64,000 nucleotides of DNA from Xestospongia bergquistia (lineage: Eukaryota; Porifera; Demospongiae; Haplosclerida; Petrosiidae), in NCBI GenBank assembly GCA_963965975.1, contig OZ014412.1, positions 374,501-438,500 on the forward strand. Reading direction: 5' to 3'. The notes beneath the pieces are model-generated. The model ran no database searches. It was not told where the DNA came from and worked only from the letters and a program-made list of their open reading frames with translations. Shown here one piece after another: positions 9,222 through 33,323 of the stretch. The number at the start of each line of letters is the position of its first letter. Position 1 is the first letter of the stretch. The translations under genes and the position numbers were made by a program.

Positions 9222-12200
9222 TCATATATAGTCATTAATATTATCATATACATCAGTACTATTTTGATTTATTGTCTCATAAACTGGAGGAGTAATCAGT
9301 GATGATTGTTGTTCCATTCTACCATATGATACATTCTCTGTTACTTCAATTGATGACTGATGAATACCATATGCATCATTTCTGAACTGTATCATCACTG
9401 GATCTTTACTCTCTTTAGTACTGGACACTAATATAAAACACACACAAACACATACAGTGGTAATAGTTACTATATAGTACTGACTTTTATATATCAAGAT
9501 TATTATAACAATTTAAGATAACAACTATTAGTATTAGGAAGATAATAATACTACTAATAATAATACTAGCAATAACTACATTATATTTTGAGAAAAACAT
9601 GTCATTATTAATTTGTCTATTACATTAATGACATATTATCTACTGGACCATAACATGTACATATCATGACATACACATATTATGACATACCTTTATTTTT
9701 ATAGAAGATATAGAAGATAATAAGTCCAACAAGAACAACAATAGCTATTATAATAATAATAGTAATAACAATACCAACAATAGCTCCACCACTTAGTCCT
9801 AAATATAAGATAGAGATATATAGTATACAATAATAGTAATAACTTACCACTAGGACTGCTCTCTGTAGGTGGACTTGTAGTAGGTGTGATTGATATTGGA
9901 ATTGATATTGAAAATATTATTTTGGTAGTAGGTGTGGTTGATAGTCCTACAGTTGATGTGATGATGGATGTAGTAGTAGTTTGAGTAGCTTATGTATTGA
10001 AATGTAATGTATATTATGTATTATGTAGTACAGTGAACAAAATAGAGAAAATAAAGTAATATAAATTATATTATGTAGTCATTAAGGAACTCTATATTAT
10101 ATACACATAAAAACTGATAACCTCTCTATAATCAGGGTTACTATGATAACATCTCTAGTGGTTGTACATATTGTTTAATAAAGTAATAATATGAGTAGAC
10201 TCACTTGGTTGGATAGTGATCTCTCCAGTAGAAATAGCATCAGATGTACCATATTGGTTTGTAGTTGTAATATTAAATAAGAATGATCCTCCATTAGTTA
10301 ATACAATAGTAAGAGGTACTATAGTATTACTGATATACTTCATAAAAGAAAAGCCCTCACTTTCTACAATAGAGTTATCAGTTATATTAATAATAGTTAC
10401 ATTGAACTGGAAGGTACAATTGTCACCAGGTGAACGAGTACGAACCTCAAGAGTCACTTGACCAGGAGATGAAGTGTTTGATATGAACACAGGTAATGAT
10501 GGTATACCTAGAGATGTTATCAGTAATTGAGGAAATGATTAACAAATTAACTAACTCTACAGACACATATAGTCTGTGGTCAATCAGATGATATATTGAA
10601 ATCAAACACTACATTATGACATAGTCATAATGTAGTTATGTAGTTATTTATTTTACAAAGTAAGTTCTAATGTCTATCATACCATTGTTTGTTATAGCTA
10701 CATAAACTATCAATTACTACTATATACCATATATGGTAATATTACCTTCAGTGGATATAATATTGGAGATGTTCCTCATATTAGTACCATTAGTATTGAT
10801 AGCAGTAATACTACAGTAGTATCTCTCTCCAGCAAACACTGGACCTACACTAGTACTACCCATCAAATTATCATCAACACATCCAGTTAGATTAGAACAT
10901 GATAACATATTATAAAGTTGATTTGAACTACCCTCTCCATCAATAACACAATACACCTCTATATCATCAATATCTTGACCTCCAGTATGACGAAATATCC
11001 ATGATATATTAATATTACCATTAGATGGAATAACATTGACTGTCTGGAACATTGGAGCTAACAGATAACAGAGATATATCATATATATACATTGATATAA
11101 CACAATTACCTCCTCTCATTGTCATAAAGGTAATTGGATCACCAGGTTCACTCTTTAATAGACCAATGGTGTCTCCCATGGCAACAGCTATCACAGTAAC
11201 ATCATATGTAGTACCAGGGATAATGCCCCTGATAATTAGTATAGTATTAGTAGTATTTAAGATGACATCAGAGGGAGGAGGTGGTACCATGACAACATGA
11301 TAATAACTAACAGTTGGAGTACCCAGTTCACTAGGAGGTGACCATGTTAGTTTGACACTTGTATCAGTGACATCCATCTCTCTCACATTAAGAGGAGGAC
11401 CAGGTATCACTGATAAGAGCGAGTATCATAATTTATGACAACAGTAATGATATTATCTATATACCTGCTATAATGAGTTGTACTGTTTGATATAGACCTG
11501 ATCCTATACCATTACTAACAATACAGGTATATGTACCATTATCTTTATTGGTAACATTAGTTATTGTAATCTGTCCATCTACTGATGTATTAAAATGATC
11601 ACCAGGAGTTATGAGTGTATTATCTGGACCAGTCCAAGTCACATTAGGTACAGGATTACCCTCTATATCAGTAAATGCTATCAAAGTCACTGTATTACCA
11701 GACAGTACTGGTTGAGATCTTCCATCTCTTGTACATGTAGCAGTAAGATCTGTTGATACATAACCAATATACTAGTTACAAAATAATGTTTACTTACATT
11801 GTACATCTAGTATAAAACTAGTGGTAGTTGATCCAGCATCATTACTAACAGTAAGTGTATAGTTACCAGACTGGTTACGTTGAACATTAGTAAGTGTTAT
11901 AATGTAGTCAGTTAGTATAATATCATTATTGCTATTAGATAGTAGGGGTTGACCCTCATGTGTCCACTGTGATGTTAGTAGAGGAGGGAATGGAGTAGGA
12001 GCTCCTCCTATAGTTAGATCCACTGTAATATTATTACCTTCTGTTACTAACTGAGTACTAACAGGAGTTAATAGAGATGGGAGAACTAAGAATATAATAA
12101 TATGAAATTCTCTGACTTAATAGAATATGTACCTGGAAATCCAAAATTGAACTGTCTCAGAGTTGCTGTTTGTGGTCCACACTTAACTAGTGATAGATCA

Positions 12201-12559
12201 AACTCATTAGTGAAATTTAGTATAGTGAAGTTTGTCTGAAAGGTTAATGATCCTTGGATAAAAACATCTCCAATAGCTTCAATTTTACCAACTAAATCAG
12301 TAGGATTTGTGACTTTACCATTAAAATCAAAATCTAGCACTATCAATTGAGAATTATTACTTCTTCTAATCAGCCATCTTGTTACAGCTTGTGTATTACT
12401 ATTGAACACCTCACAGTAAATAGATACATTGAGTGTCCCTTCATCAGCAAACACATAAGCTGGACCACTATCAGTATTAGGAACAGTTGTGTAGGTCACT
12501 TGACTAGCGACCTTGTTAAAAACAAGAAGAGCTGCTAGATACCACAGAATCGCTTTCAT
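9222..12559 (-). CDS. ITAM-tailed Ig/FN3 receptor 3, activating twin of the 27410-33323 receptor
   Basis: Exons: signal peptide plus Ig A 12133-12559 (start MKAILWYLAALLVFNKVASQ), Ig B 11798-12085, Ig C 11465-11749, FN3 A 11110-11409, FN3 B 10746-11057, FN3 C 10205-10507, Thr-rich stalk 9848-9988, transmembrane 9691-9798, tail 9222-9427. Eight of the nine exons correspond one to one with the plus-strand ITIM gene, seven of them with identical lengths (Ig C is 6 nt longer). The tail does not correspond: it is of the receptor 1/2 kind, with ITAM YETINQNSTDVYDNI, a YGRM site and a short extra C-terminus. A second, ITAM-type transmembrane exon relic at about 9485-9582 lies between the used transmembrane exon and the tail. 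It has lost its acceptor and carries an inserted T, so it is presumably skipped. Phase 1 is kept when 9691-9798 is spliced to 9427. Confidence 0.8.
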
Positions 12560-13242
12560 TCTCAATGACTTAAACTAAAGATAAAGTAAAGGAGGGATTG
12601 GAAAAGGAAGTAGCTCAAATGACGTTTTCCAATGTACAGGCTGTCGGCAAATCTTATCCGTGTTTCGCCTACAAAATGACTGTTTTGTAGTAGTACTGTT
12701 AGCATTAGAGTTCGTGCACTCACTAAAAAAGCAACGTGGTCACATTCATCTCAATGTTTGCGTGTCTGTGTGGGTTTATGTCTACTTATTTATGCTTTTA
12801 GACTGTCAAGAAGTCCGACACTGCCCCCATTGAATCGTTTGTGTTCCTCTAGGTAAGGAAGTATTTGAGTTATGTTATTAACCATACACTGTACACGAAT
12901 GGGTAATTGGACAGTACTGTGTTTTCAGACTTCCAAACGACTGACTATTGGGCCAAAGATACCCCTACTTTGTGTTCCTACTTTGAGTTAGTGATAAAAA
13001 GCTCAGGTCCAGGGTTTACATGGCCTATAAGGCAATGGTATCTGAATGGATTGGCTATATTAACTTAGTTAGAAGTGAATCATCTGAACTTTTCTATAGA
13101 CCTGACAACTGAAGAGCAGGGAACATGCCTCGTAAAACAAGATTCTCCTATAAGAAGAATTGCGAGTGCAAGAGTAGAATATGTACATGTTACACATAAC
13201 AAACATATTTGTACATGTATATAGAAGGACTGAATTGTCGCT

Positions 13243-14375
13243 GAGACTGATGTTACACCTACTCCATCAGACACGCCTACTCCATCGGACACACCTACTC
13301 CATCAGACACATCTACTCTATCAGATATACCTACTCTATTAGATACACCTACTTTATCAGATACACCTACTCTATCAGATACACCTACTCTATCAGATGC
13401 TGACACATTTCAAGATGTCCCTCATGCATATTCTTTAGAAGATCTTCATAACTCCATTCCTGTTGCATTTCAAAGGCAGCTGTGGACTGACCAGACAGAG
13501 AACTCTCAACCACTTTCACATATCCGATTATGTAAATTCAACTCCTCTCCTTCATCTTCCATGCCTCTATTAGTTGTTACACAGTGCTTGACAGTGAACA
13601 ATGCCCTAGAATGGTTTCTCTCAGTGCACAACTACGAAGTGATACCAATGTCATGTCATATACAGTATACTTTCCTCCATTCCAAATAAACTGACACCTG
13701 CAACTCTCATCACTCTGCTTCACCTGTTAGATTCTCTTAACGTTTGTGCTGGTCAGCCAGATGATAATTTTGTTGCTATGATAACAGCTAAGAAGGGAGT
13801 TTTAAAGGCTCGTGTGATGGAAGCACTGTGGCTATTTTAGATAAATATGCTCCTATTAGTCAAAATGGTCAAGTAGTCACTCAAACTGTTAGAACTGTGA
13901 AATGTGATCTCCTTACCTCTAAAGGAAAGTGCTATCCCTGTCAAGTTTACTGAGCAACTTTGCGAACAGCATACAGGCATTGGGTTAAATGATGTTTGAG
14001 TGCAATTAGTGATACAACAAGTCACACAAACATCAGGTACTTAAACACTCCTGAAAAGAAAGCAAAGTGTGTGAAACTGAAGAGCTCAAGCAGCAGAAAA
14101 GTAGGTGCTAATCCTTCTGAAGATCATGTCAATGACAAAGAAACAGGGAGAATGTGTGGACAGCAGTTTGCATGGTGAGCTCCTCCACATAATGACAGAG
14201 AAAACACCTGAGATAAATCAAGTATATCCAGAGGGAAGTTTCAGCAGAATTTTTTGGGAGCAACAATTACAGGCAGCTTCTGTTAAAGACCCTCGTCAAG
14301 TTCGTTGACACCCAGTGATATGGAAACCTTTAGTAAACCTCTACCCAAGTGCAAAAGAAAGAAGAAGAGAGTCTT
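13243..14375 (+). pseudogene. Transposase-like gene remnant with Thr-Pro-Ser-Asp repeats
   Basis: The plus strand encodes a (TPTPSD)n repeat and then a continuous frame to about 13688. After frame changes there are segments with KCDLLTSKGKCYPC, a downstream SHTNIRYLNTPEKKA stretch, and SRIFWEQQLQAASVKDPRQVR near 14240-14308. I recall the order Cys-rich motif, SHTNxRYL, then FWEQQLxAxxxKDPRQMRWHP from multicopy transposase-like proteins of marine invertebrates, but I cannot name the superfamily. Several frameshifts and stops make it non-functional. It is cut off by the nested element at 14454. Confidence 0.5.
13250..13400. repeat. 18-bp coding minisatellite
   Basis: About eight units close to CCTACTCCATCAGACACA, each encoding TPTPSD or TPTLSD on the plus strand. 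Units differ by a few substitutions and keep frame. Confidence 0.85.
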
Positions 14376-14476
14376 AACTTTGAATTTATTACTACAGTAC
14401 ATTGATTATTACAGTACATTAAATACAGTACATTGAATACTATACAATGTCATTGTCACGCAGTATTTTATCCTAC

Positions 14477-14506
14477 GCAATTTTTGGTCCTAGGACCAAA
14501 AATTGC
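14477..14506. repeat. Perfect 30-bp palindrome near the left end of the nested element
   Basis: The sequence is symmetric about CCTAGG, with arms GCAATTTTTGGTCC and its complement. The same CCTAGG core recurs in the subterminal repeats at 17757-17935. Confidence 0.9.
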
Positions 14507-14676
14507 TAGGTTTTTTTTTTTTATCCCACCTTGCATTTTTGTATCCGCATGTGTCGCTATCTCTCCAAACTGAACAAAGAGTCCTTGCCGCGCAAAATAA
14601 CTGATCAAAGTCTTTTTGGCAAATGATATACTGTTCAGAGATTCATATTTTTCGAGATTTAGCTGGAAAAGAAAGT

Positions 14677-16250
14677 ATGGCCGAGGGAGAGGATCTAATT
14701 GATGAAGCTTTTTTTATGTGTCAGAGAAGAAATATCCAGATGGAGCCAGTGCAACTAGGAAGAGAATAATTAGAAAGAAGGCAGAAAAATTTGTTATAGT
14801 TGATGGAGAGCTGTACTACAAACCTGGAAGAGAGAAGCAGGTAAAATGACAAATGTTTGTAAAATAAAGTTTCAATTCAATGGTTGTTGGAACTATTGTA
14901 GATAGTTAAATACATACAGTCTCGAAGTGAGCAATTAAAGATTGTGAAATCATGTCACATTGATCCAACATCGGGACATATGGGATTTAAGAAAACAGTA
15001 GGACGAATCAGGGAACGATTTATGTGGAAAGGTATATGGAATGATGTCAAAGAAGTGGTGAGTTCGTTTAAATTTGGTATTGTCTTATATCAACACATGT
15101 AGGTTGCTACTTGTGATGAATGTCAGAGGATGAAACAAAAACCCAATTGTTACTAACAATGAGCTTCATCCTATACCAGTACATTCTCCATGGTACCATG
15201 TGGCAATTGACTTTGTCGGCCCAATATCTCCAAGATCTAGTAATAGGAATCGTTTTATTCTCACTGTGTCATTCCCTTGCCTAGCAAATGTGCCCATGGT
15301 GTTGCTGAAACTTTATTCAAGGTAATGATCATTATTGAGTAAAATTATAGAACAATATTCACATTTGCCACAGCTTTTTATGAGAATGGGTCTTCCTAAA
15401 TTGTTGACAAGTGACCAAGGCGGAGAGTTTAGATGCCAACTTGACAAAGACCTTATGAAACTTCTAAGCATAAAGCGACATTTTACGACACCCTATCATC
15501 CACAGGTATTGTAGTCAGTCTCTTATGATATACTATTATGTGTAAAAATTTCATAGGCATGCAAATGGATTAGATGAAAGGTGGAATCAAACCCAATGTT
15601 GGTGAAGTTTACTCATGACAGGAAAGATGAATGGGATTTTATTTTTAGAGATATGCGTGTTTGCATATAAAACATCCAAGCATGAATCCTCTCTGCATAC
15701 GCCATTTGAACTTATGTTTGGTAGAAGAGCTGTCATACCAATTGATGTTGAAACAGAAAAAAAAGAAGGGAATGAACTTCTACATGAATATCTAACAAAT
15801 ACATCTGTAAGTTAGTGTTTTCCTCACTGATTTTTACTAAAAAGGAAGAAAGACAATAAAAGTGTATAATGTGTATAATTAATTACTGTTATATCAGTCT
15901 TTCATTAATTATCATTATTTTATACAGGAGGATGTTATAGTCACTGTTGATACTCTAACTACTCAAAGAAAAGCCTTGCTTGAGAATGCAAGAAAAAATA
16001 TAGAGGTAGCACAGCGGAGACAAAAAGAGCAATATGATCAAAACATTCAATACCACCAAAGTTTGGAGTTGGAGTCAAAGATCTGAAAAAAGATTTCTTA
16101 CGCAAAAAGAGGAAGGGAGGTTGTATGGATCACAAGTGGCTAGGACCATATGAAGTTATAAAAGATGTCAGCAAAGGTTTTTTTTACTCAAACGTGCAGA
16201 GAGTGGTAAAACTATTAAACGAATCCATGATGCCCACTTGAAAGTCTATC
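14677..16250 (+). pseudogene. Integrase-like transposase, interrupted
   Basis: Starts at ATGGCCGAGG (about 14677). Recognisable parts in order: an N-terminal region with LYYKPGREKQ; the zinc-binding HHCC-type module spanning SCHIDPTSGHMGF and TCDECQRM (14950-15130); the rve core with a first Asp in VAIDFVGPI (about 15205) and a second in LLTSDQGGEF (about 15395); a YKTSKHESSLHTPFELMFGRR segment; and a basic C-terminal part ending HDAHLKVYHTPP near 16250. Small introns appear to split it. Stops and frame changes around 15150 and 16080-16170 indicate decay. This arrangement occurs in gypsy-derived integrases such as GIN1 and KRBA2 relatives and in Ginger elements. Confidence 0.6.
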
Positions 16251-17653
16251 ATACACCTCCAAATTCACCAAATTCTAGCAATCTCCTATCACCTTTCAAT
16301 CCTAATGATCACTCAGATATACCTCCATCACCATTTCACTTAGACAATAATTCACATATTTCATCATTAAATCATTCAAGTCTTCCAACGTCATTTGACC
16401 ATGACAATTCTTCTAAATCTCTGTCATCATTAGGGCTAAATAATCATTTGGATGTTCAAGACTCTCTTATATCTTCAGAGTTTCGCCAAAATAATACTTT
16501 CACAGTAAATTGCAACTTTCAATCATCCACACCTATTTACTTTCCTATCACTATATCACCAACACCTGTCTTTTCTCCTATATTACCACCCTCTTTACGG
16601 TCTCCACCTCGAAATTCTTCACCCATCACTTTGTCATTGCATCCTTCAATAACCCCTCAACCTCTTATTTCTGTGCTTGTAGCTTCTTCATTCCAACCTT
16701 CTTCATTATCACAACCTTTGACTTTTCTACCTGTCACGGTGCAACCATCTCTTAGTTCTGTAAATATTACTTCATTATCTCAGCCTTCACAGAACATTCA
16801 TGCCAAACATCTTGCTATAAAAATGCGACTGAAGGCTAAGCTAGCAGATCTGAAAGAGGTGGCAAATAACAGTGAACAGATTGATAGGGTTAATGTTGAT
16901 GATCTACAAGACACAATGGAAGTAAAGTGTATGTGGGTGCAGAAGCTATCAAAGGCTGATGAACATATTCTATTATCTGGGGAGTGGTTGAATGATACCA
17001 TTGTAAATGCATCACAAAGACTGATCGCAACATCTTTTCCTCTCTGCAATGGGTTACAAGATACCAATCTTGGACAAACTGTAGCATTTGATATTCAAAG
17101 GTCTCCATTTGTTCAAGTGTTGCATATAGGATATGGTCATTGGGTGACTATCTCCACATATGGATGTGACCTTGGATTTGTTGATATTTATGAGAAATCA
17201 ACATCAGGTATGTTATAGTCTTATCTGTTTTTACTCACTAAGTTTCATTTTATCTTTAAAGGTATAGGTATTGCCAGTCACAAGTTGGCTCATCAGATTG
17301 TGGTCTCTTTGCTCTGACTTTGCCTCAGTGATTGCTATGGGAGATGATCCAGGTAGATATACATTTGAGCAACGAAAGATGAGAGACCACTTACACAGCT
17401 GCTTAAATAAAGGAACTTTTTCTACATTTCCTACAAGACGTGTTGGTTGAAAAGTCCATAAAATCACCAATATTGTAAAGATACCAGCATATTGCAAATG
17501 TTGGATGCCAGAGATCAAAGATTTAAAGATGATTCAATGCAGCACTTGTTCTGAATGGTACCATATTGATGTTTGTGTGCAAGTCTCAGAAGAGGTCATT
17601 AAAAAGAGATCTTCCATTTGGTTATGCAACAACTGTGATAAAATTTCTGTATA
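16238..17653 (+). pseudogene. Ulp1-like protease plus PHD finger, C-terminal half of the nested transposon
   Basis: The long frame 16238-17218 begins with about 190 Ser/Pro/Thr-rich residues that look like a linker. It then enters a C48-type peptidase: LSGEWLNDTIVNASQRL, catalytic His in GHWVTIS, Asp in GFVDIYEK. After a short intron the Gln and Cys follow in QVGSSDCGLFAL (about 17280-17325). A frame change follows, then a PHD-type finger at about 17490-17645 (CKC, then CSTCSEWYHIDVC and WLCNNC). Ulp1 relatives cleave SUMO-like proteins. The role in transposons is unknown. Whether the frame joins by splicing or is broken after the Cys is not resolved. Confidence 0.6.
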
Positions 17654-17756
17654 ATTCAAAAGTTTATTACAGTAAAATGAAAATTAATGTTAACCTTAAA
17701 TACCTTAAATATTATTAGTATAGAATGAAATATAACAAGTTATATTTTTATAGATC

Positions 17757-17935
17757 TTAGGATAAAATATTGCAAGCAATTTATTATCCTAGGATAAAAT
17801 ATTGCAAGCAATTTATTATCCTAGGATAAAATATTGCAAGTCAAAATTTTTTGTCCTAGGAAAAATTTTGTGCGGGTAGGACAAAATTGTGTGGCAATAT
17901 TTTATCCTAGGATAAAATAATTTGGCAGTATTATA
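17757..17935. repeat. Subterminal repeat array with CCTAGG palindromes
   Basis: Two near-identical direct copies and one partial copy of a unit of about 43 bp (ATCCTAGGATAAAATATTGC), followed by inverted variants. All lie just inside the right end of the nested element. Confidence 0.85.
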
Positions 17936-17980
17936 TCCAGTCGGACAAATTATAGGTAGGATAATAATTGTCATGACAGT

Positions 17981-18558
17981 CTAATACCACTGAACATCTT
18001 CATTTTTCATGACATTGTCTATCACCTGCTGTTTAAAATCATCACATGATTTAGATGACTGCTTGACCACGTAAGTAGGAAGAAGGACCTTCACCTCCTT
18101 TTCAACTGCAATGAAGAAAATGTAGGCAAGGTTGTTCAAAGGAAATAAACCTCCATGATTAACTTTGCCAATCCATTCTTTAGTATAAGTTACCAAGTCC
18201 TCATGATCATCATCACTATTGGTTGCCATATTCCCCAAACATTTAATAAATGTGTCAAATTTCTGTCAAGACCTCTCTGATACTTCTTCAGTAGTACATG
18301 TGGTATGTAACCACCAATATACTGTAGAGCATTTAGTTCATCCTTACTCATTGATTCCTCAGCAGAACTAGATGTATGAGGTTGGCTACTCCTGGGAGAT
18401 GAAAAGTGGTCCGACAATAGCATCTTGAAGGTTTTGAAGGTCACAGATTTTTGCAGTAGTTTGTTCTCATGGTCATGTAGGTCTACTGACTTGAAAAATT
18501 CATCCCATATCTTACTGTATTCTTTTGATATTCTAAATTGGTGAAAAGATGACCACAT
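17981..18558 (-). pseudogene. Transposase-like C-terminal fragment
   Basis: Two overlapping minus-strand frames. 18190-18558 contains ELNALQYIGGYIPHVLLKKY, a motif style seen near the C-terminus of several DNA-transposon proteins (a helix with GY). 17981-18238 continues in another frame. The pair is probably one gene broken by a frameshift and belongs to the outer element. I cannot identify the family. Confidence 0.4.
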
Positions 18559-19018: not shown

Positions 19019-19036
19019 CCATACTATATCTTGTTA

Positions 19037-19825: not shown

Positions 19826-19835
19826 GCACACTCTC

Positions 19836-19876: not shown

Positions 19877-20534
19877 ATGTAACCATTCTGTCCTTCTTTT
19901 ATCCATCCAACTGTCGATGTGTTCATTAATATAATTATTTATACAAACATCTATCCATCTAGCCCTCTATGATTCAGCCTCATCTTGTACACTGCTATGT
20001 GTTTATTCTATATATATTGGTTAATTTATTATCATCCACTTATTCATTAATTCATCTATCTATACATGTTTCATACTATAATCTATTAGTTGTACTAATC
20101 TTTAGTTGATCTCTGCCTTCTTTTGTACATTCATGCATCAATCTATCTATCTCTTCACTCCTTAATTTTATTCACCTATGTATTAATGTTTCATCTTCAT
20201 CAGAATACTCACAGCAACTGCATCTTTTATGTGTTGATGTTTATAAGAAATCTGAAAACATACCTGACATTGAAAGACTACGACATATGCAAACCAACTT
20301 CAAATAACAGTGATTTACACAAACACATAGAGGTGGTTACTCTTTGGTATTTACTGAAATACAGGAAAACAATTTTATCAATTGTTGAAAGAAATAGTGA
20401 TATAGATAGATAGTTAATCCTCAATTTCTGGAGTCAGTAGAGGATAGGAATGTTTGAGCTTGGAGGAATTATCAAGATCTTTGTGTTGATGCTTAGAAAA
20501 CAACAGATTGATGTTAATGAGATAGTTGGAAGCT

Positions 20535-20925
20535 AATGTTCAACGTAACCAGTCTGGTAACTATACACTTACTGTTAGTAATGATGTTGGATCAACTACC
20601 ACTAGTTTTATACTAGATATACAATGTAAGTAAATATTTAATAATATAATAAACTTTTAAGTATTGTGTATATATTAACAGATGTTCCTACTGCTACAAG
20701 AGATGGAAGATCTCAACTAGTATTATCTGGTAATACAGTGACTTTAATAGCATTTACTGATATAGAGGGTAATCCTGTACCTAATGTGACTTGGACTGGT
20801 CCAGATCATAATACACTCATAACTCCTGGTGATCATTTTAATTCATCAGTAAATGGACAGATTACAATAACTAATGTTACCAATGAAGATAATGGTACAT
20901 ATACCTGTATTGTTAGTAACAATTC
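20535..20925 (+). pseudogene. Receptor fragment: end of Ig B and most of Ig C
   Basis: The plus strand carries the last third of an Ig B exon (NQSGNYTLTVSNDVG type) with a correct GTAAG donor at about 20628. An intron follows, then an Ig C exon from about 20684 that stays open through GTYTCIVSN and then diverges. No other modules follow. It is adjacent to an oppositely oriented fragment. Confidence 0.7.
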
Positions 20926-20994
20926 TTGTAGCAAAAGAATATCTGTTAATACATACATAATACATGCATAAAGGCTTAATGCATAGGCTGAATA

Positions 20995-21602
20995 TGTTGA
21001 ACATTAGTAAGTGTTATAATGAAGTCAGTTAGTATAATATCCTTATTATCAATATAGTAGGAGTTGACCCTCATGTGTCCACTGTGATGTTAGTAGAGGA
21101 GGGAAAGAAGTAGAAACTCCTCCTATAGTTAGGTTTACTGTAATATTATTACCCTCTATTACTGACTGAGTACTAACAGGAGTTAATAGAAATGGAAGAC
21201 CTAAAAATATAATAATATGAAATTCTCTGACTTAATAGAATATGTACCTGGAAATCCAAAATTGAACTGTCTCAGAGTTGCTGTTTGTGGTCCACACTTA
21301 ACTTGTGATAGATCAAACTCATTAGTGAAATTTAGTATAGTGAAGTTTGTCTGAAAGGTTAATGTTCCTTGGATAAAAACATCTCCAATAGCTTCAATTT
21401 TACCAACTAAATCAGTAGGATTTGTGACTTTGCCATTAAAATCAAAAGTTGGCACTATCAATTGAGAATCGTTACTTCTTCTAATTAGCCATCTTGTAAC
21501 AGCTGGTGTATTACTATTGATCACCTTACAGTAAATAGATACATTGAGTCTCCCTTCATCAGCAAACACATAAGCTGGAACAGTTGTGTAGGTCACTTGA
21601 CT
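20995..21602 (-). pseudogene. Receptor fragment: Ig A and part of Ig B
   Basis: The minus strand has an Ig A exon (about 21247-21602, TYTTVPAYVFADEGRLNV onward) whose coding part is open but whose signal peptide is missing. It is followed by a damaged Ig B exon at 20998-21200. With the plus-strand fragment next to it this makes an inverted pair of partial gene copies. Confidence 0.7.
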
Positions 21603-22030
21603 AGAGAGAGATATTGCTAACTACATGCAGCTGAATTTATAAGTTCTTTCCTTTTTAAAAGTTTATTAAATTTTTGTAAGTGATCCATAATTATATTTTT
21701 TAATAGATGAGCAATTATTGAAATAATTTTGTTACGGAACAACACCAGTGGTTACAAGTTTCTGTCTGTTTTATTTGCATTATTAGATATTCAGAGGTCA
21801 GTAAGACTATCATGAGGCCTGAGTTGATGTTAAGTTTCTTTGAATTCTTTAGCAACTACCCTTCTGTATGTTTATTCAACCCTATAATAATTAAGAAAAC
21901 AGACATTGTGAATGTATTTTAGATAATTTATAATTCAAACAAAAGACATAAATAAGTAAATATTAATGTAGGGATGGCCATGAGAGTAAAAGCAATTTAA
22001 AGCATCTCATTAAACAAGCCCAAAGTAGCT
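21603..22030. other. No gene seen
   Basis: AT-rich spacer ending at the 5' LTR of the retrotransposon. Confidence 0.4.
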
Positions 22031-22190
22031 TGTAGTGCACGGAGTAATTTACTGAGATATACGATAGCAGAATCGACACTTGTACCTTGTGTTGTGTTTT
22101 GATCATCTCGTCTCAAACTGAACTGTTTATATAATTTTGTGTATCAGTCATCAGTGTATGGTATTAGTGTTGTATCATTTAAATACTATA
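22031..22190 (+). repeat. 5' LTR
   Basis: Matches 25399-25553 with small indels. Begins TGTAGTGCA and ends just before the primer-binding-like site. Confidence 0.8.
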
Positions 22191-22205
22191 TTGGTGACCC
22201 AGACA

Positions 22206-22850
22206 TGAGAACGTCTATCGAAGAAACTGCTGCTCGTGATCCCTCAACCTCAGTTAGTCTCAAACCGCCTTTATTTTGGCCATCAGATCCCGAGATATGG
22301 TTTGCCCAGGTTGAGGCACAATTCTCCACAAGAGGCATTTCAGCTCAGAAGACCAAGTACAACTATATTGTCGCTTCCTTATCGCCCAAATTTGCTGCGG
22401 AAGTCAGAGATAAAAGTACCCGACACAGATCCTTACGTAAAGCTGAAGGAACAACTCATTAAACGAACAGCTGCTCTTGAGCAACACAGGCTACAGCAGT
22501 TATTCAACGCAGAAGAGCTGGGAGATCGAAAACCTACCCAGTTATTATAACATATGTAGTAGTTATTCGGGGGAAAAGCCAACACCACAGATGAATCCTT
22601 TCTTCGTCAACTGTTTATCCAATGGTTGCCGTCAAATGTTTGTATGGTCCTAGAAACTATTGCTGACATCACTTCCATTGACGAGTTAGCCAACCTAGCT
22701 GATAAAATTATGGAGGTTGCCACACCCACTTCATCAATATCTGCTGTTAGCCAATCGCAGGTCTCCTCAGAAATGGAACAACTTTGTAGTCATATCTCCA
22801 ACCTTCAAAAGCTTGTCCAACGACTTTACATATCTCAAAGATGAGATCCC
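22206..22850 (+). pseudogene. gag-like region, frameshifted
   Basis: The frame from 22206 encodes [20 protein letters not shown] followed by a helical capsid-like stretch. It shifts at about 22420-22450 and again near 22550. The part from 22626 (LPSNVCMVLETI, then a LADKIMEV segment) is the capsid C-terminal portion. No intact zinc knuckle was identified. Confidence 0.65.
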
Positions 22851-22951
22851 CCTCATACTCATTTACCCAGCCCAACCCTACAACGATCTCAATCAAACTT
22901 ATGTTGGTACCATCAAGAATTCGGTGATTCTGCCAAGAAATGCCGTGAGCC

Positions 22952-25345
22952 TTGTTCAAAGTTGGGAAAAGCCTCAGCCAGCAGCCACTAGTGGCGTCTG
23001 GTGCTGCTGGCCACAAACAACCTAGTCGTCTATTTTATGTTACAGACCATTCTATTGGATTACAGTTCCTTGTTGATACCGGTGCGGAGGTCAGTATAGT
23101 ACCTCCTACTCCTACTGACCATTTACATCAACAGACTGGACCGTCCCTTCAAGCGGTTAACAATACTACAATAGCGACTTACAGTAGTCATTCCCTCACC
23201 CTTAATTTAAGACTACAACAAACACTTTGTTGGATATTTGTTATAGCTAATGTCAGAAAACCAATCCTTGGAGTCGATTTTCTATGACATTATGAACTTA
23301 TAGTGGATATAGCTCGCAGAAACTCTCAGATGCAGTGACTCACCTGACTGTCCAAGGTGTTGTATCTACAGAACCTTCTGTGAGCCCTTCACTCTTACCA
23401 AAGCAGGTACATAATCCATATCTCATCATGTTACATGACTTTCCTTCCCTCCTAAAGCCATACAATCAACAAGTGATTACACACAAGGTTACTCACCATA
23501 TCACTACTACTGGATCACCAGTTCATTTACCCACTTGCAGATTGTCGCCAGAACAGTTTGATGTTGCTTGAAAGGAATTTGAACACATGCTACAATTGGG
23601 TATCATTCATCCATCATGTAGTAGTTGGGCCTCTCCTTTGCATATGGTCCCCAAGAAGACTCCTGGAGACTGGCGCCCTTGTGGTGATTACCGAGCATTA
23701 AACAATATCACCATCCCCGACCGCTATCCCATCCCACATATACAGGACTTCACTGTATCCCTCCATGGTGCTACCATCTTTTCTATACTCGATCTCGTTA
23801 GAGCATACCACCAAATCCCAGTTGAACCAGCTGATATGCCTAAGACTGCTGTCACAACTCCATTTGGGTTATTCGAATTTTTTTGCATGCCATTTGGACT
23901 TTTGTAATGCTGCCCAGACATTTCAAAGATTCATTGATCGGGTCCTTTGTGGCCTCCACTTTTGTTATGCTTACATTGATGATGTGTTAGTCGCAAGTTC
24001 TCAGTCCATTTCTGACATCAGATATGTTAAAGGATCCAACAACACACCAGCTGACACACTTTCATGAATGGGAGTTGACACTGTACTTCAAGAAAACCCA
24101 CCTATCTTTGATTTTTAACAGATGGCTGCAGCTCAACAGCAAGACCCTGATATTCTCAAACTGCAAATTTCTTCATCATCACTACTTTTCAAGGCTTGTC
24201 CTATCCCTATGTCCGACGGTAAAATAATTTATGATATGCCTACCAGGGTACCTTGTCCAAATACCAACGACAGTTTTTCACTCCTTACACTCGCTCTCAC
24301 ATCCTGGAGTTAGAGCCACTCAGTGACTCATCACTTCTTGTTTTGCCTGGCCAAACATCAACTCTGATGTACGGAAGTGGGCCAGATCCTGTATTCAGTG
24401 TCAAAGATCTAAAATACATTGTCACACCATCACCCCGCTCGCAACTTTTGCTACCCCCGATAATCGGTTTGAGCAAGTGCACCTTGATCTTGTAGGACCT
24501 CTACCACCATCCCAAGGCTATACTTACCTCGTTACGGTCATTGATCGATTTACTCGTTGGCCGGAAGCTTTTCCTAGCCCTGATAGTACTACACCTACAG
24601 TTGCCCGAGCCTTTGTCAGCGGATGGATCTCACATTTTTGGAGTGCCCTCAACAGTCACCACTGATCGTGGATGTCAGTTCGAATCTACTTTATGGAAGG
24701 AACTCATTGAACTTTTAGCTACTATACGGCTCAGAACAACTGCTTACACCTTAATACAAATGGCATTGTTGAACAATTTCATCGCCAATTAAAAGTTGAT
24801 TTGAAAGCATACCCTAATTCCACTCACTGGGTGGATTCGCTCCCCATGGTGTTACTCGGTATTCGAACAGTCCTCAAGACTGACCTTGGTTGTTCAGTAG
24901 CAAGCTAGTTTATGGTAAATTTTTCGTTTCAGAGCAAACAACACAGACTAATCCAGCAGAGTTTGTCTCTCAACTAAAAACTGCAATGTCCATTCTTAAA
25001 GCAGTCCCAACACATGGGTACTCTTCCTATTGTAAAGTTCATGTTAGTCATCACCTTAGTACTTGTACTCATGTATTTGTAAGACACAATGCTATACGAA
25101 AACCACTTCAGGTTCCGTATGATGGACCTTATAAAGTGTTAAAACATTCTGACAAACATTTCAGCCTAGAGATCAATGGACAACAAAAAGTTATTTCTCT
25201 TGACCATTTAAAGCCAGTGCATTTAGACTCATGTGATTATTTAACCACTCCACCCTATACTAAACCACTTCTCCCTGCACCGACCCCTCAACCTTCATTC
25301 ACCACTTCAATCACTCACTCTGGTTGTCATTATACACTGGCCTGA
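22952..25345 (+). pseudogene. pol-like region with protease, reverse transcriptase and integrase remnants
   Basis: In order: aspartic protease with the LVDTGAEVSIVPP motif (about 23068) and ILGVDFL; reverse transcriptase from about 23335, including [11 protein letters not shown] and the YIDDVLVASS catalytic motif at about 23970. About 30 bases later the sequence jumps to YVKGSNNTPADTLS, normally found at the end of RNase H, so the RT thumb and most of RNase H are deleted. Integrase core pieces follow (HLDLVGPLPPSQGYTYLVTV, TTDRGCQFES) and a C-terminal module to 25345. Multiple frame breaks exist. The element is not autonomous. Confidence 0.75.
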
Positions 25346-25398
25346 TTGGCTAGACTTATAATTTGTATTGTTCATTTTACTCTCTTGTGGGGGAGTGA

Positions 25399-25553
25399 TG
25401 TAGTGCATGGAGTAATTTACTGATATTTACGATAGATTATTGCAGAATCGAGTCTGGTACTGTGTTGTGTTTTGATCATCTCATCTCAAACTGAACTGTT
25501 AATGTTATTTTATCAGTGTGTGGTATTAGTGTTGTATCATTTAAAATACTAAA
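25399..25553 (+). repeat. 3' LTR
   Basis: Direct copy of the 5' LTR with some indels, preceded by a purine tract. Confidence 0.8.
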
Positions 25554-25905
25554 AGCTACACAGAAGTACCTAAACACAATATTTAATTTTGAGCTGAATT
25601 TGTTAATCTGTGAGCACATTCTTTTTAACAAGGACATTTGTTTTAAAGTTCTGCTACAACTATTATGTCAAATAAGTATTGTTCCATCGCAGGATCGACA
25701 TTTTAGCTACTATTTCTACTTCGCAGCTTGGGCTTGTTTGAACACCGGATATCTTAGGCTAGCATTTGGAGGTGTGATTATAGTAGATTTGTAGTTAAAT
25801 TTTAATAACTATTTCACGAAGACGGCAAGTTTACTGCTACTAGATACCGTTTTCAACTTTTCGTGTGTAAGGTTGTTTGTGGTTGAATGAGCTATCTTCT
25901 ACGGA

Positions 25906-27244
25906 ATGGCGAATATATTGGCTATTTTTGGACTTTCTTGTCTGGTAGTTTTAAGTACAGGTTAGTTAGTGTACAGTGTCAAAAACAGTTTCTTCACTAG
26001 ACTTTCCCCAGGCCAACAATTTAATATTTCCACTACGCCATCTAATGCTACAATCAGCGTGGGACAAAACTTAACCATTGAATGTGACAGTGGCACTAAT
26101 TCCATTTTTCCTAGTTTAGAGATCAATGGGAATCCTACAGATGCTAATGATCGAGTTGATAATATCACTCCTGATAATTCATCAGCAAGAATACAATTGT
26201 TCGTGTTTATCTCAGCTAATCGTAATGATAATGGACTTAATTTTACCTGCGTTGGTCCTGGCAATCTTGTATCAAATATAGTAACGTTAAAGGTTCTTTG
26301 TAAGTTGTCTTAGTGTATTTATATCATTATGTATGATATGTTTTCCATTTAGTCATACCTATTATCTCACTCATCACTAATGGTGCTGGACTAGAAGGAC
26401 AGTCTGCTACTGTCACTTTTGTAGTTGATGCTAATCCACAAATTATTGCTAGTGATGTCAGTGTTAGTTTAAATAACACTCCTGAAGTACAGATCAATGG
26501 AGGTAGTGTGTCTCTAAACTTCTCTAACCTGATGCGTAGTAATGATGGACAACATACCGTTACAGTAACTAACTCTGAAGGATCAGATACTGAAAATTTC
26601 AATCTACTAGTATATTGTAAGTGAAACTATTTACAACTACTACCAATGGTTATTATTTTGTAGATGGGCCTACATTTACTCGGTCTGATGATACAAAGAC
26701 TGTAGCTGTAGGTGGTTCTATTACACTGGACTGTTCTATACAGGAATCTAATCCACAAGCTAATGTGTCATTTACTACTGATGCTAATGATCGTACTAAT
26801 GTATTATTTAATTCTGGTACTAATATGATTATGATATCAAATGCTGTACTTGGTAACAGTGGAGTATATACATGTACTGCTGACAGTGGTCAGGCTACAA
26901 CTACTCTCACATATACACTGAATGTGGAAAGTTAGTTTTATGATCATAACTATAGCATCATGTCTTTATCATGTTAGGTATGTCAGTGTCAGGGACTGTT
27001 ACTATTACTGCTTCAGCTACTGTGTCTACATCTACTACTAGTCCTTCACCAACACTAAGTATGTAATGTTAAATTTAGATGTTATTAATTGCTTGAATAA
27101 TAGGTCCAAGTCCTACTAGTGGAGCCATTGGAAGTGGTAAGATCATTTGGTATTTTCTTTTACATATTCCTCCTCTCTATAGTTGGTCTCATTTCAACAA
27201 CCTTCTCTGTAGTGCTGTTGGCAGTTACTGTTTTTTTCAATTAA
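25906..27244 (+). CDS. Three-Ig protein with a GPI-anchor-like C-terminus
   Basis: Exons: signal peptide 25906-25960 (MANILAIFGLSCLVVLSTG), Ig 26012-26299, Ig 26353-26616, Ig 26664-26930, Ser/Thr stalk 26978-27058, linker 27104-27136, C-terminal hydrophobic exon 27183-27244. All are phase 1. The last exon ends VGLISTTFSVVLLAVTVFFN and stop, so nothing follows the hydrophobic segment. Small residues precede it, as in GPI-attachment signals. The first and third Ig modules have both cysteines; the middle one has none. It lies about 170 bp upstream of the ITIM receptor, same strand. A surface-bound ligand, decoy or co-receptor role is possible but not shown. Confidence 0.75.
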
Positions 27245-27269
27245 CTTTCGTTTTTGAAATATTATATAT

Positions 27270-27409
27270 AGTATGGTTATTGTTGTTGTGGTTAGTAAAA
27301 ACGTACAGAATTTTTAAACAAAAATTGATTTTACGTGGTCTAACAATTTTAATGAGACCCCCAGGGTTACTATATGCACCTCCTGTTCTTTTAGTTTGAG
27401 TCATTGAGA
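27270..27409 (+). promoter_or_regulatory. Conserved 5' flank of the ITIM receptor
   Basis: The region upstream of ATG 27410 is repeated in inverse orientation at 18903-19018. Its last 20 bases also match the 5' flank of the 12559 start. It therefore probably holds the shared promoter of the twin receptors. No TATA position was assigned. Confidence 0.45.
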
Positions 27410-30400
27410 ATGAAAGCGATTCTGTGTTATCTAGCAGCTCTTCTTGTTTTTAACAAGGTCGCTAGTCAAGTGACCTACACAACTGTTCCTAATACTGATA
27501 GTGGTGCAGCTTATGTGTTTGCTGATGAAGGGACACTCAATGTATCTATTTACTGTAAGGTGATCAATAGTAATACACCAGCTGTAACAAGATGGCTAAT
27601 TAGAAGAAGTAATGATTCTCAATTGATAGTGCCAACTTTTGATTTTAATGGTAAAGTCACAAATCCTACTGATTTAGTTGGTAAAATTGAAGCTATTGGA
27701 GATATTTTTATTCAAGGATCATTAACCTTTCAGACAAACTTCACTATACTAAATTTCACTAATGAGTTTGATCTATCACTAGTTAAGTGTGGACCACAAA
27801 CAGCAACTCTGAGACAGTTCAATTTTGGATTTCCAGGTACATATTCTATTAAGTCAGAGAATTTCATATTATTATATTCTTAGTTCTCCCATCTCTATTA
27901 ACTCCTGTTAGTACTCAGTTAGTAACAGAAGGTAATAATATTACAGTGGATCTAACTATAGGAGGAGCTCCTACTCCATTCCCTCCTCTACTAACATCAC
28001 AGTGGACACATGAGGGTCAACCCCTACTATCTAATAGCAATAATGATATTATACTAACTAACTTCATTATAACACTTACTAATGTTCAACGTAACCAGTC
28101 TGGTAACTATACACTTACTGTTAGTAATGATGCTGGATCAACTACAACTAGTTTTATACTAGATGTACAATGTAAGTAAACATTATTTTGTAACTAGTAT
28201 ATTGGTTATGTATCAACAGATCTTACTGCTACAAGAGATGGAAGATCTCAACTAGTACTGTCTGGTAATACAGTGACTTTAATAGCATTTACTAATATAG
28301 AGGGTAATCCTGTACCTAATGTGACTTGGACTGGTCCAGATAATACACTCATAACTCCTGGTGATCATTTTAATACATCAGTAGATGGACAGATTACAAT
28401 AACTAATGTTACCAATGAAGATAATGGTATATATACCTGTATTATTAGTAATGGTATGGGACCAGATCTCTATCAAACAGTACAACTCATTATAGCAGGT
28501 ATATAGATAATATCATTACTGTTGTCATAAATTATGATACTCTCTCTTATCAGTAATACCTGGTCCTCCTCTTAATGTGACAGCGATGGACGTCACTGAT
28601 ACAACTGTCAAACTTACATGGTCACCTCCTAGTGAACTGGGTATTCCAACTGTTAGTTATTATCATGTTGTCATGGTACCACCTCCTCCCTCTGATGTCA
28701 TCTTAAATACTACTAATACTACACTAATTATCTGGGGCATTATCCCTGGTACTACATATGATGTTACTGTGATAGCTGTTGCCATTGGAGACACCATTGG
28801 TGTATTAGAGAGTAAACCCAGTGATCCAATTACCTTTATGACAATGAGAGGAGGTAATTGTGTTATATCAATGTGTATATATGATATATCTCTGTTATCT
28901 GTTAGCTCCAATGTTCCAAACAGTCAATGTTATTCCATCTAATGGTAATATTAATATATCATGGATATTTCGTCATACTGGAGGTCAAGATATTGATGAT
29001 GTAGAGGTGTATTGTGTTATTGATGGAGAGGGTAGTTCAAATCAACTTTATAATATGTTATCATGTTCTAATCTAACTGGATGTGTTGATGATAATTTGA
29101 TGGGTAGTACTAGTGTAGGTCCAGTGTTTGCTGGAGAGAGATACTACTGTAGTATTACTGCTATCAATACTAATGGTACTGATATGAGGAACTTTTCAAA
29201 TATTATATCTACTGAAGGTATGATAATATTATAATGTAGTGTTTAATTTCAATATATCAACTGATTGACTACAAAATATCTGTAAAGTTAATATGTTAAT
29301 CATTTCCTCAATTACTAGTAACACCTTTCTCTAGGTATACCATCATTACCTATTCTCATATCCAACACTTCATTTCCTGGTCAGGTGACTCTTGAGGTTC
29401 GTACTCGTTCACCTGGTGACAATAGTACCTTCCAGTTCAATGTAACTATTATTAATATAATTGATAACTCTATTGTACGAACTGAGAGCTTTTCTTTTAT
29501 GAAGTATATCAGTAATACTATAGTACCTCTTACTATTCAATTAACTAATGGAGGATCATTCTCATTTAATATTGTAACTACTAACCGATTTGGTACATCA
29601 GAGGTTATTTCTACTGGAGAGATTATTATCCAACCAAGTGAGTCTACTCTTATTATTACTTTACTATATAATATGTACAATCACTGGAGATGTTATCATA
29701 ATAACCCTGATTATAGAGAGGTTATCAGTTTTTATGTGTATATAATATAGAGTTCCTTAATGACTACATAATATAATTTATATTACTTTATTTTCTCTAT
29801 TTTGTTCACTGTACTACATAATACATAATATACATTACATTTCAATACATAAGCTACTCAAACTACTACTACATCCATCATCACATCAACTGTAGGACTA
29901 TCAACCACACCTACTACCACAATAGTACCTTCAATATCAATTACAGTATCAGCCACACCTACTACAAGTCCTCCTACAGAGAGCAGTCCTAGTGGTAAGT
30001 TATTACTATTAATGTATACTATATCTCTATCTTATATTTAGGACTAAGTGGTGGAGCTATTGCTGGTATTGTTATTACTATTATTATTATAATAGCTATT
30101 GTTGTTCTTATTGGACTTATTGTATTCTATATCTTCTATAAAAATAAAGGTATGTTATAATATGTGTAATGTCATGATATGTACATGTTATGGTTCAGTA
30201 GATAATATGTCATTAATGTAATAGACAATTTAGTAATGACATATTTATCTCAAAATACGATACAGCTATTATCAGTTTAAGGTGACCTAATATTACTATA
30301 TTTAGCATGTTATGAATTTATTATAACTAATTTCTATCTATGAATGTAATAGGGCATGTACTATCTACTAGGTATGTTGGATACAGCCTACTAGGTAGGT

Positions 30401-32086
30401 ATGTTGGTACAATAACAGATTATTGTTGATTTGAAATTAGCTAATGTTGACAAACTACATAAGTATGTGACTTTGTGGGTAAAATGAGACCCCTAGTGTG
30501 GTCAAATTTGGCTGGAGGGTCTCAAGATGAGGGGTCCAATAATGCCTGGGGGCTATTGTCAGGGCTGTGTTTACATATTAGTAAAGTGTTAGTACATTCC
30601 TCACATATTGTGGCTAGCTTATAATGGCTTCTACTAATTAGCAGTAACTACTTGATCTGTTGTATGGTATTGTCCATGAAAGGATATTACCACATTCCTG
30701 TGTTACTAAGGTGTTAGAAATTCCCAAACTAAATAAATTTAACTTTTATATAACTGCCTCTTAATGTTTATGACACCTTCTGTAATAATGCTATTGTACA
30801 TACTTTGGGGTGTGTTTTAGTATTACTGACTCATGTAGTTATGTGAAGGACCACCTGATAGTGGTATCATGTTATAGTCTATTATGTACTATTGGGAATA
30901 CACTGATATACAATATAGAGTGAATAGTAGGTCAAATAGTTTATTGTATTGACAGTAACATTCATTATTGAGAAAAGTTGTATTGGGGGAGTATTAACAG
31001 ATATGATACACCATCACACACACACACATATAGTGTCTTCTATATCACATACATACCACACAGTAAAGGGAGTAAGTAGTGGATCATATCAACCATATCA
31101 TAGTTTGTGTATCTGATTACATCTCCTACACAAATAGACATGATATCAGCATTCTCTTTTAATGCTTATTCTAATACCATATAAGGTGTTAACTTTCATC
31201 CTTATTTTAGTAGCATGTATTGTAATAAGGTGTTTATTAGTAGCATGTAATCTGTTAAGGTGTTCAGGTGTGACAAGTGAGTGACAGTGAAGTGATAGAG
31301 ATCATACACAACATGTAACAACATGTAATGATAACACAAACAATACTTGGAATTCATTATGTCAATAGCTGACTGGATAATCAGATAAAGATTATCATGT
31401 TGTCAATAATTTATAATGAACATATTTTGAACAATAATTGTCTTGAGATGTGAGGTTTCTAATTTTATCAAGCTAGTCTTGGCAAGGCCTCTAATTTCTT
31501 AAATTTCTTTTGACTATAACAGTCCCTATCTCTAAACTTAATACCATATAAGGTCATTGTGGTTTGATACTTGAATTATATGTAATCAGAACTGTGTGAA
31601 TGGTCAGGTTTCCTTTAAACTGGTAGGTTTAGTCAGGAACTTATAAGGGGATATTAATACAAGCACTAGATATTGATTTGATTTATCACTATTTACAGTG
31701 TAAGTTTAATTTATAGTACACATTACTTGTAAGGAGATGTTACTCTAGTCACATTGTTGCTATAACGAATTAAGTCAACTGTTCCATCTGTCCGGAATGT
31801 TACTAGTCCACTCAATGTGTGGTACTAATGTTAGTATTAGGTTTAGTGTTATCTTTTCTGTGTTGGTTTTTTGACAAACTAGTCAGTATAGTTTTAGTTT
31901 CATTATGTACAATGTATATATTGTTGATATAACTCTGCTATGTAAATTACACAAGTGTCTTGTTAATTTCTATGTGTATATGAAATAGTCACATATGTTG
32001 TTGTATTATATCATAGTTATGATAATAGTTGTAGGCATAAAGGAATTAGATAATAAACATTTACAACAATATAGTTTCAGAATGAC

Positions 32087-32132
<46 letters not shown>

Positions 32133-33323
32133 AGGTGACTCATATCAAGTTGAAAGAGGAGGAGGAAAGTAAGTCATGATAACATGTAAACATGCACTTG
32201 TTAACACGTCAATATGTACTTGTTGTTTACATGATAATAACACAGTGATACAATTCTCAGCTGCCTATATATCAAAATTTCAATTAAATAGAGAGAGACT
32301 AGATGATATCATATTGTCTCCATAATGTCAGCTCTAAAACTAGGAATGTGTTTAACATGTGTTATTAGATCAGCTGAGATATATAGGTCATTGCTATGTT
32401 TATACTTGTTATTGTCTTTGAGTTTACATTAGAGCTAAGACTATTGCACAATCTATGAATATTATTTTCTTAATAATTGTTATTTTATGTGGTTATCACG
32501 TGACTATCATGTGATATAGGGGTGTGACAGTTGAAGAACTTGATATTGACATTGGAACTGAACTGAAGGGGACATCGTCAGGAGGTGGTGAAAGTCAAAC
32601 AGAGCCCCCAACAGAGAAGGTATCTTATTCGTTGATTCTAATATTGATATTATATTTTGTAATAGCCTGAACTACATTATGCTGACTTAGAACATTTTCA
32701 AAAGAAGCCTCAACAAAGTGGACAACAAGTTCCTGCCCCTAAACCTCAACCAATTCAAGAGGTAACACCTGTTATTCTGTGGTATATTAAATATCTTTTC
32801 ATTTGAGCATGAAAGGATTGAATCTTGTCTATTCCCAACCAGTAATAACAATAATTTATCATGTAACAATCACATGATGCCCCACATCATAGACCATTTA
32901 ATGTTCAGAGAATACAGACTTTATCTAATGTCTAATGGTTTACTACTAATGTATTAATTGTGACATTGACTAAGCTTAGTATTGACTTTATACTCAATGG
33001 TATGATGTTATTGTACTAATACATCACAGCCCTAGTATCATACAAGAGTTTACTATATATCATACAAGGTTACTATAGTCTGGTGATGTATCTAGTTACA
33101 CTAAAAAGTCTAATGTCTAGCTCTGTGGGAAATATTCTCTTAAACATTTTAATAGCATAGTAATCTCTTGTAATTCTATTAGTAATCTCTTGTAACTCTA
33201 TTAGTAATCCTTTGTAATTCTATTCTATTCTATCTTGTATCATATGATATTGCTGTATTATTCCTGTAGGTACATTATGCTGAAATAAAGCCCCAGGATG
33301 CTACAAAGACATCGTCAACATAG
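27410..33323 (+). CDS. ITIM-tailed Ig/FN3 receptor, inhibitory twin of the 9222-12559 receptor
   Basis: Type I membrane receptor. Exons: signal peptide plus Ig A 27410-27836 (MKAILCYLAALLVFNKVASQ), Ig B 27884-28171, Ig C 28220-28498, FN3 A 28554-28853, FN3 B 28906-29217, FN3 C 29335-29637, Thr/Pro/Ser stalk 29854-29994, transmembrane 30042-30149 (GAIAGIVITIIIIIAIVVLI), then after a 2-kb intron tail exons 32135-32168, 32520-32619, 32666-32761 and 33270-33323. Phases close throughout to TAG. The tail has LHYADL in the third tail exon and VHYAEI in the last. Both fit (I/V/L/S)xYxx(I/V/L). In vertebrates such motifs recruit SHP-1/SHP-2 phosphatases and oppose ITAM signalling; this role is inferred here. 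An AATAAA lies at about 33522. The ectodomain is almost the same as that of receptor 3. Confidence 0.85.
30150..32134 (+). other. Long intron before the ITIM tail exons
   Basis: About 2 kb between the transmembrane exon and the first tail exon. No coding signal was seen. Its first roughly 110 bases are shared with receptor 3. The rest, up to the acceptor, is specific to this gene. Confidence 0.6.
32085..32134. repeat. (TC)n(AC)n tract abutting the first tail-exon acceptor
   Basis: The microsatellite forms the entire pyrimidine-rich tract and the AG acceptor (ACACACAG) of the exon at 32135. Confidence 0.9.

Follow-up and report, generated by a model that had tools for sequence, protein, structure and literature searches.

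Paired receptors carrying an immunoreceptor tyrosine-based activation motif (ITAM; consensus Yxx[IL]-x6-12-Yxx[IL]) or inhibition motif (ITIM; consensus [SIVL]xYxx[ILV]) are best known from vertebrate leukocytes, and motif-bearing recognition receptors occur in a tunicate and a cnidarian. In the vertebrate KIR, LILR, SIRP and Siglec families, activating and inhibitory members form clustered pairs with shared ectodomains, and the activating members usually borrow the ITAM of an adaptor via a charged transmembrane (TM) residue. The present analysis concerns two genes of the sponge Xestospongia bergquistia, gene A (9222-12559, minus strand, nine exons) and gene B (27410-33323, plus strand, twelve exons), that probably constitute a paired receptor, in which two single-pass receptors with immunoglobulin (Ig) and fibronectin type III (FN3) domains present nearly the same ligand-binding head and carry opposite cytoplasmic tails. 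Both genes lie in a stretch of 64,000 nucleotides (nt), referred to as the window (C2:374501-438500, where C2 is contig OZ014412.1), close to one end of this 16-Mb contig in a 146-Mb genome of 21 contigs; coordinates without a contig label are positions in the window. The paired-receptor reading is based on gene anatomy and tail motifs, on how well the ITAM tyrosines are conserved, on SHP-type loci in the same genome, and on the mosaic structure of A.

A and B resemble the KIR, LILR, SIRP and Siglec genes in their shared ectodomains and are unlike them in that the ITAM resides within the receptor itself and the TM sequence has no charged residue. In mammalian CEACAM pairs the ligand-binding exon is shared and the cytoplasmic exons have been replaced (PMC2832619). 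Like A and B, receptors of the CEACAM1/CEACAM3 type correspond in their exons and introns, frequently as far as and including the TM exon, and then differ in cytoplasmic exons with ITIM versus ITAM; their similarity peaks at the N-terminal ligand-binding exon, a feature attributed to recombination that is shared with A and B, and the activating member bears its own ITAM, as A does (PMC2832619). A and B differ from the CEACAM genes in their combination of Ig and FN3 exons, their occurrence in a sponge, their inverted orientation and the large ITAM array around them, and common ancestry is not claimed. The Hydractinia Alr genes are, like A and B, clustered single-pass members of the Ig superfamily (IgSF), some with an ITIM or ITAM and many of them presumed pseudogenes, a likeness of description; unlike the case of A and B, the accessible parts of the reports do not describe these motifs on near-identical ectodomains (PMC12065747, PMC11999971, PMC11067881). 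Allelic control of allorecognition is established for Hydractinia Alr (the same three sources) and can be hypothesized for A and B, for which a role in allorecognition is conceivable. The Botryllus FcoR genes likewise encode IgSF receptors of a recognition locus whose tails bear an ITIM or a hemITAM, but some of them swap the motif by splicing, whereas the tails of A and B belong to two genes, and the FcoR proteins carry a sushi domain flanked by Ig domains of V type and C2 type (PMC12065747), which A and B lack (no match at E<=1 in a Pfam scan). Since no homology is established and one FcoR feature fails, A and B are not classed as Alr, FcoR, KIR or CEACAM. No sponge ITAM/ITIM receptor genes were recognised in the titles and abstract openings searched, a body of literature in which subscription journals are thinly covered, so absence is unproven; in a paper on Amphimedon grafting a term count gave zero occurrences of immunoglobulin, ITAM, Syk, tyrosine and receptor.

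The predicted proteins are open throughout, with 789 amino acids (aa) in A, of which 68 form the tail, and 813 aa in B, with a 94-aa tail spread over four exons. From signal peptide to TM segment the two genes correspond as follows (A coordinates, then B). Exon 1 (12133-12559; 27410-27836; 427 nt in each), which in A comprises the signal peptide and a variable N-terminal domain, is 97.2% identical between the two. Gene models and the Pfam scan place an Ig-like domain in exon 2 (11798-12085; 27884-28171; 288 nt), an Ig domain, I-set in A, in exon 3 (11465-11749; 28220-28498; 285 and 279 nt) and an FN3 domain in exon 4 (11110-11409; 28554-28853; 300 nt). Exon 5 (10746-11057; 28906-29217; 312 nt) and exon 6 (10205-10507; 29335-29637; 303 nt) have no Pfam match in A, an FN3-like domain in exon 5 being a guess, and are followed by a stalk in exon 7 (9848-9988; 29854-29994; 141 nt), Thr/Ser-rich in A, and by a TM segment of type TM1 in exon 8 (9691-9798; 30042-30149; 108 nt). 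Every intron in both gene models is GT-AG, and up to the first tail exon all introns of both genes are of phase 1, so that tails could be exchanged without a change of frame.

At the DNA level homology between A and B begins 20 nt 5' of the ATG and, introns included, amounts to 97.0% identity over 1837 bp and 92.4% over the following 1051 bp; the first four introns share 200 of 202 bases. It stops in intron 8, about 100-120 nt downstream of the B TM exon, at the site occupied in A by a decayed exon of the TM2 type (9514-9582, minus strand) that is also present in A2, another ITAM gene with TM type 1 (C2:283376-286695). Gene models and DNA alignment thus confirm the exon-by-exon correspondence put forward in the initial annotation, in which seven of eight exons are equal in length and exon 3 differs by 6 nt, and a motif scan of the predicted tails bears out its statement that A ends in an ITAM and B in two ITIMs. 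Its head-to-head orientation is also correct, but 14.85 kb lie between the two 5' ends, and this interval holds receptor-gene fragments in opposite orientations (20533-21620), one of them an exon-1 piece 97% identical at the protein level to B exon 1, together with what appears by eye to be a Gypsy-like retrotransposon (22103-25345).

The tails are where the genes part. A exon 9 (9222-9427), 98.5% identical to the A2 tail, encodes a cytoplasmic segment containing YETINQNSTDVYDNI with the ITAM YETI-x7-YDNI, which matches the consensus in both halves and in spacing; a strict ITAM arose in 0.84% of 100000 composition-preserving shuffles of this 68-aa tail. The B tail is encoded by exon 9 (32135-32168, 34 nt, GT-AG and frame-compatible), exon 10 (32520-32619), exon 11 (32666-32761) with the ITIM LHYADL, and exon 12 (33270-33323) with the ITIM VHYAEI and then the stop codon; both motifs match the ITIM consensus, and two ITIMs appeared in 0.18% of 100000 equivalent shuffles of the 94-aa tail.

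Conservation of the ITAM tyrosines, as read from an alignment of related tails, is a stronger test than shuffling. An ITAM-tail query against 5.8 billion proteins returned 66 relatives, which are not independent cases because they surely include copies from the same species (P0168 is an A2-type tail). Among them the first ITAM tyrosine, Y71, is kept in 65 of 65 and the second, Y82, in 44 of the 49 tails that reach the position; a nearby tyrosine at position 43 is kept in just 7 of 59. A complete YxxI/V-x7/9/10-YxxI/V is present in 41 of the 66 tails (spacing 7 in 19, spacing 10 in 21 and spacing 9 in one), and one further tail has an ITAM with T at +3 of the first half. Fourteen end no more than three residues after the first half and form a half-ITAM class (P0143, P0147, P0151, P0153 and others), and in the remaining ten the ITAM is incomplete or altered.

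Comparison of A with both B and A2 indicates that A has been assembled from two sources. B and A are 97-100% identical from exon 1 to intron 2 and 92-94% identical in exon 6, exon 7 and the first part of intron 8, with 96.8% in intron 6 and 96.3% in the TM exon, whereas A and A2 are 98.5-99.3% identical over exon 6, exon 7, the final intron and the tail, 97.2% in the TM exon and only 77.5% in exon 1. When sites are counted at which two of the three genes agree, introns 1 and 2 with exon 2 give 58 sites at which A equals B and one at which A equals A2 (14 and one in the ungapped alignment of exon 2 alone), while introns 5-8 with exons 6, 7 and TM give 18 and 64 (Fisher 3e-22 versus the 5' end). 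The best single breakpoint falls about 870 bp from the start codon, with a score reached in none of 1000 permutations. Trees were run for exons 1, 2, 4, 5 and 6; they join A with B in exons 1, 2 and 4 (support 1.00, 0.997 and 0.87), exon 6 instead unites A and A2 (0.92), and exon 5 resolves neither grouping. A is thus best described as a mosaic with a B-like head (exons 1-2) and an A2-like 3' end (exon 6 to the ITAM tail), for which the exchange may have run in either direction. Such a mosaic, joining the head of the ITIM gene to the tail of the ITAM array, lifts A and B above a chance juxtaposition. The initial view of A and B as twins holds for the near-identical ectodomains and gives way where A proves to be a mosaic and the pair only one edge of a large ITAM array; the proposed likeness to the vertebrate paired-receptor layout is strengthened by the evidence of exchange. 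Properties of paired receptors found in the sequence are similar extracellular regions, opposite tail motifs, and linkage of genes that have exchanged their ligand-binding domain; the best reading of them would be a sponge paired-receptor system that arose by convergence. A simple inverted duplication of one gene was rejected, since A resembles B at its head but A2 from exon 6 on.

Across the array (13-16 copies per exon, omitting copies with a stop, with coverage below 80-95% depending on the exon, or with identity below the cut-off) exon 1 has diverged at 23% of nonsynonymous sites and at 40% of synonymous ones, as against 2-6% and 2-10% in exons 2-6, which implies that the membrane-distal domain is old and diverse and that the rest has been homogenised. 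In the whole genome the exon-1 type of A and B is found at more than 90% identity only in A, in B and in one fragment of the interval that separates them; the same interval holds a 44-residue piece at 75%, and the best relative elsewhere, on C10, reaches 72%. From the sequence, this exclusiveness is the strongest reason to suppose that A and B would bind the same or related ligands. The fold of exon 1 gave no lead: the Pfam scan found no match above chance level, an AlphaFold model built from six window sequences was unusable (predicted local distance difference test, pLDDT, 39.6), and a PDB search with the exon-1 profile returned a single match at E=0.25, which counts as nothing. For the whole B protein, six database relatives were found among the best 7995 candidates scored, the closest being 33% identical, to titin-like proteins.

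Candidate partners for both tails are encoded in the same genome. At least nine loci have the domain order SH2-SH2-PTP (one on C7, one on C6 and seven on C3, of which six are clustered and one of these six is interrupted by a stop), as judged from the order of SH2 and PTP matches among the best-scoring candidates; they lie at C3:1265457-1283528, C3:916188-917681, C7:8318067-8319560 and C6:199640-201523, and seven are single open frames of 521-629 aa. The C7 locus is SHP-2 (PTPN11)-like over its full length (E=7e-197) and is an SHP-2 orthologue, with 77% identity to Amphimedon queenslandica and then 61% to Ephydatia and Dysidea (named species among the 120 matches listed), in agreement with a sponge origin of the DNA; the other eight are assigned by domain order only. 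Ten SH2-kinase genes, each a single open frame, stand in a row at C6:1621395-1697212 and are candidates for kinases that might phosphorylate the tails, their assignment to the Src type being a guess. One locus with the order SH2-SH2-kinase, C5:8491785-8494427, is a candidate of the Syk type; a Syk-family kinase of Amphimedon queenslandica has served as outgroup in a Syk tree (PMC9601881). In the mechanism that we infer, which takes for granted splicing as drawn, phosphorylated tails, binding of effectors, one ligand common to both receptors and the cell type, ligand contact would lead a Src-family kinase to phosphorylate the tails. The doubly phosphorylated ITAM of A would recruit a Syk-type tandem-SH2 kinase and activate the cell, the two phosphorylated ITIMs of B would recruit an SHP-2-like tandem-SH2 phosphatase and oppose activation, and the balance of A and B would decide the response of the cell to the same ligand.

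Several observations weigh against this interpretation. Exons 3-5 are mixed (21 sites with A equal to B versus 20 with A equal to A2) and intron 6 is reversed (13 versus 7), so several exchange tracts may exist; of the 19 polarised sites in exon 6 at which B stands apart, 14 changed on the branch of B itself, so that the 3' evidence for the mosaic leans more on the tail, the decayed TM2 exon and the last intron common to A and A2. The ratio of nonsynonymous to synonymous rates (dN/dS) between A and B is about 1.0 for the ectodomain and TM segment together (64.5 changes nonsynonymous, 20.5 synonymous) with similar divergence in the introns, hence no constraint is demonstrated since the split; this value would fit a young pair under weak or mixed selection, or one copy that is drifting. 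Within the array the tail dN/dS is 0.35 with an interval of 0.12-1.25 that includes 1 (20 tails, A and A2 omitted). No match exists between the 2-kb upstream regions of the two genes, so co-expression is not implied, and the C5 kinase locus could be of the ankyrin-bearing Shark type. Finally, the B tail exons only begin 1,985 nt past the TM exon, and a genome-wide search for a second copy of this ITIM tail found none for comparison, exon 11 included.

The last of these points bear on an alternative in which B arose incidentally as the array was rearranged: an inverted receptor copy, deprived of its ITAM exons, came to lie before chance, frame-compatible ITIM-like exons, and the outcome is a silent gene or a protein that has no tail and terminates shortly beyond the TM exon. 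This would accommodate the break of homology with A at the decayed TM2 exon, an intron 8 much longer than the other introns, the solitary tail, the dN/dS near 1 and the gene fragments nearby; it is set against four tail exons that are all GT-AG and continue the frame, two canonical ITIMs that occur together in so few shuffled tails, the lack of any alternative partner open reading frame of at least 70 aa on either strand of 29750-36163, and a tail layout like that of the neighbouring ITIM family, though the similarity score there is only p=0.01-0.03. On balance this origin of B is considered unlikely. Less probable still is that the tyrosine motifs are docking sites for adhesion or endocytosis in homophilic adhesion molecules that neither activate nor inhibit, as the best PDB relatives of the ectodomain (titin, contactin-2, Robo2, then other adhesion proteins), the presence of two additional tyrosines as conserved as the ITAM pair (Y36 and Y56, the two being kept in 66 of 66 and 64 of 65 tails) and the half-ITAM tails might suggest, since an ITAM and two ITIMs are paired on one ectodomain, ITAM geometry is retained in 41 tails, and SH2-SH2-PTP loci are present in the genome.

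The probable receptor pair stands at the border of a larger receptor region, which was surveyed over 308 kb (C2:230001-538000) for matches that cover at least 60% of the ITAM tail or at least 35% of the second ITIM tail described below. ITAM tails, all on the minus strand, occupy the 106 kb between C2:278 kb and A at 384 kb, and short pieces of tail begin at 271 kb; there are 25 matches, of which 22 are full-length and stop-free, two have stops and one is broken, and A carries the last of the 22. The possibility that A is a unique ITAM gene was accordingly rejected. Genome-wide there are 100 ITAM-tail matches at E<=1, a count in which some exons are split into two matches. Two families of ectodomain and two kinds of TM segment are intermingled in the array; in the surveyed region an ITAM tail follows TM type 1 only in A and A2, both of which retain the decayed TM2 exon. 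Next to A in the window lie, on the minus strand, an ITAM-tailed gene of the same ectodomain family (1609-4426, TM2 type, exon 1 incomplete) and one of the second ectodomain family (4482-7294).

Beyond B begins a block of a second ITIM tail type, whose first tail (49372-49611, minus strand) carries IVYLDL and VVYADI and whose matches in the surveyed region are all on the minus strand. The type spans C2:423872-538000 and continues to about 934 kb, with further occurrences at 1.86 and 1.98 Mb, and carries a repeated DDDIPPPIPANVQ segment of variable copy number; its ITIM part occurs at 26 genomic places, every one on C2, three of which contain a stop. Among stop-free tails covering the motif (one tail with stops is excluded) the first ITIM is kept in 6 of 8 and the second in 10 of 11, the loss being at 529938. 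A hydrophobic segment followed by basic residues lies 441-600 bp upstream of four of the nine tails examined, and frames further upstream at C2:461 kb have weak FN3 matches (E=3e-5, just under the Pfam cut-off). Membership of the B tail in a family was rejected, no relative having been found elsewhere in the genome and its similarity to the second ITIM tail being weak (p=0.01 and 0.03). The block contains a second head-to-head case, C2:461002-464895 (minus strand, two-ITIM tail) versus C2:464981-467048 (plus strand), in which sequence alignment finds two stretches of 91% (298 bp) and 89% (469 bp) identity; the final frame of the plus-strand gene closes with an unlike tail that includes the ITIM match ISYEDV. 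The surveyed region therefore has at least two instances of inverted copies that combine a common head with unlike tails.

With adjoining ITAM and ITIM blocks, head exchange, tail swaps in head-to-head copies and expanded SHP-type phosphatases and SH2 kinases, the region might, as a tentative suggestion, be an analogue of the vertebrate leukocyte receptor complex that would tell self from non-self or friendly from hostile microbes; if so, the sponge and vertebrate lineages, at the least, would have evolved ITAM/ITIM pairs separately. A sponge pair with a recombination signature and matching phosphatases would mean that counterbalanced recognition through tyrosine motifs arises repeatedly, and such recognition may date back to the need of animals to judge cell contacts. 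A and B give research on sponge self/non-self concrete receptor candidates alongside the aggregation factors.

Other features of the window include a portion of another multi-Ig receptor immediately 5' of B (25966-27117, plus strand); a related multi-Ig piece precedes A2 (85% identity), so that B and A2 have an upstream neighbour in common. On the minus strand, 36842-41981 contains Ig and FN3 exons and then a long open frame with HLYAEI, which does not qualify as a canonical ITIM, and other tyrosines. A reading frame at 58425-59597 was judged by eye to be transposase-like.

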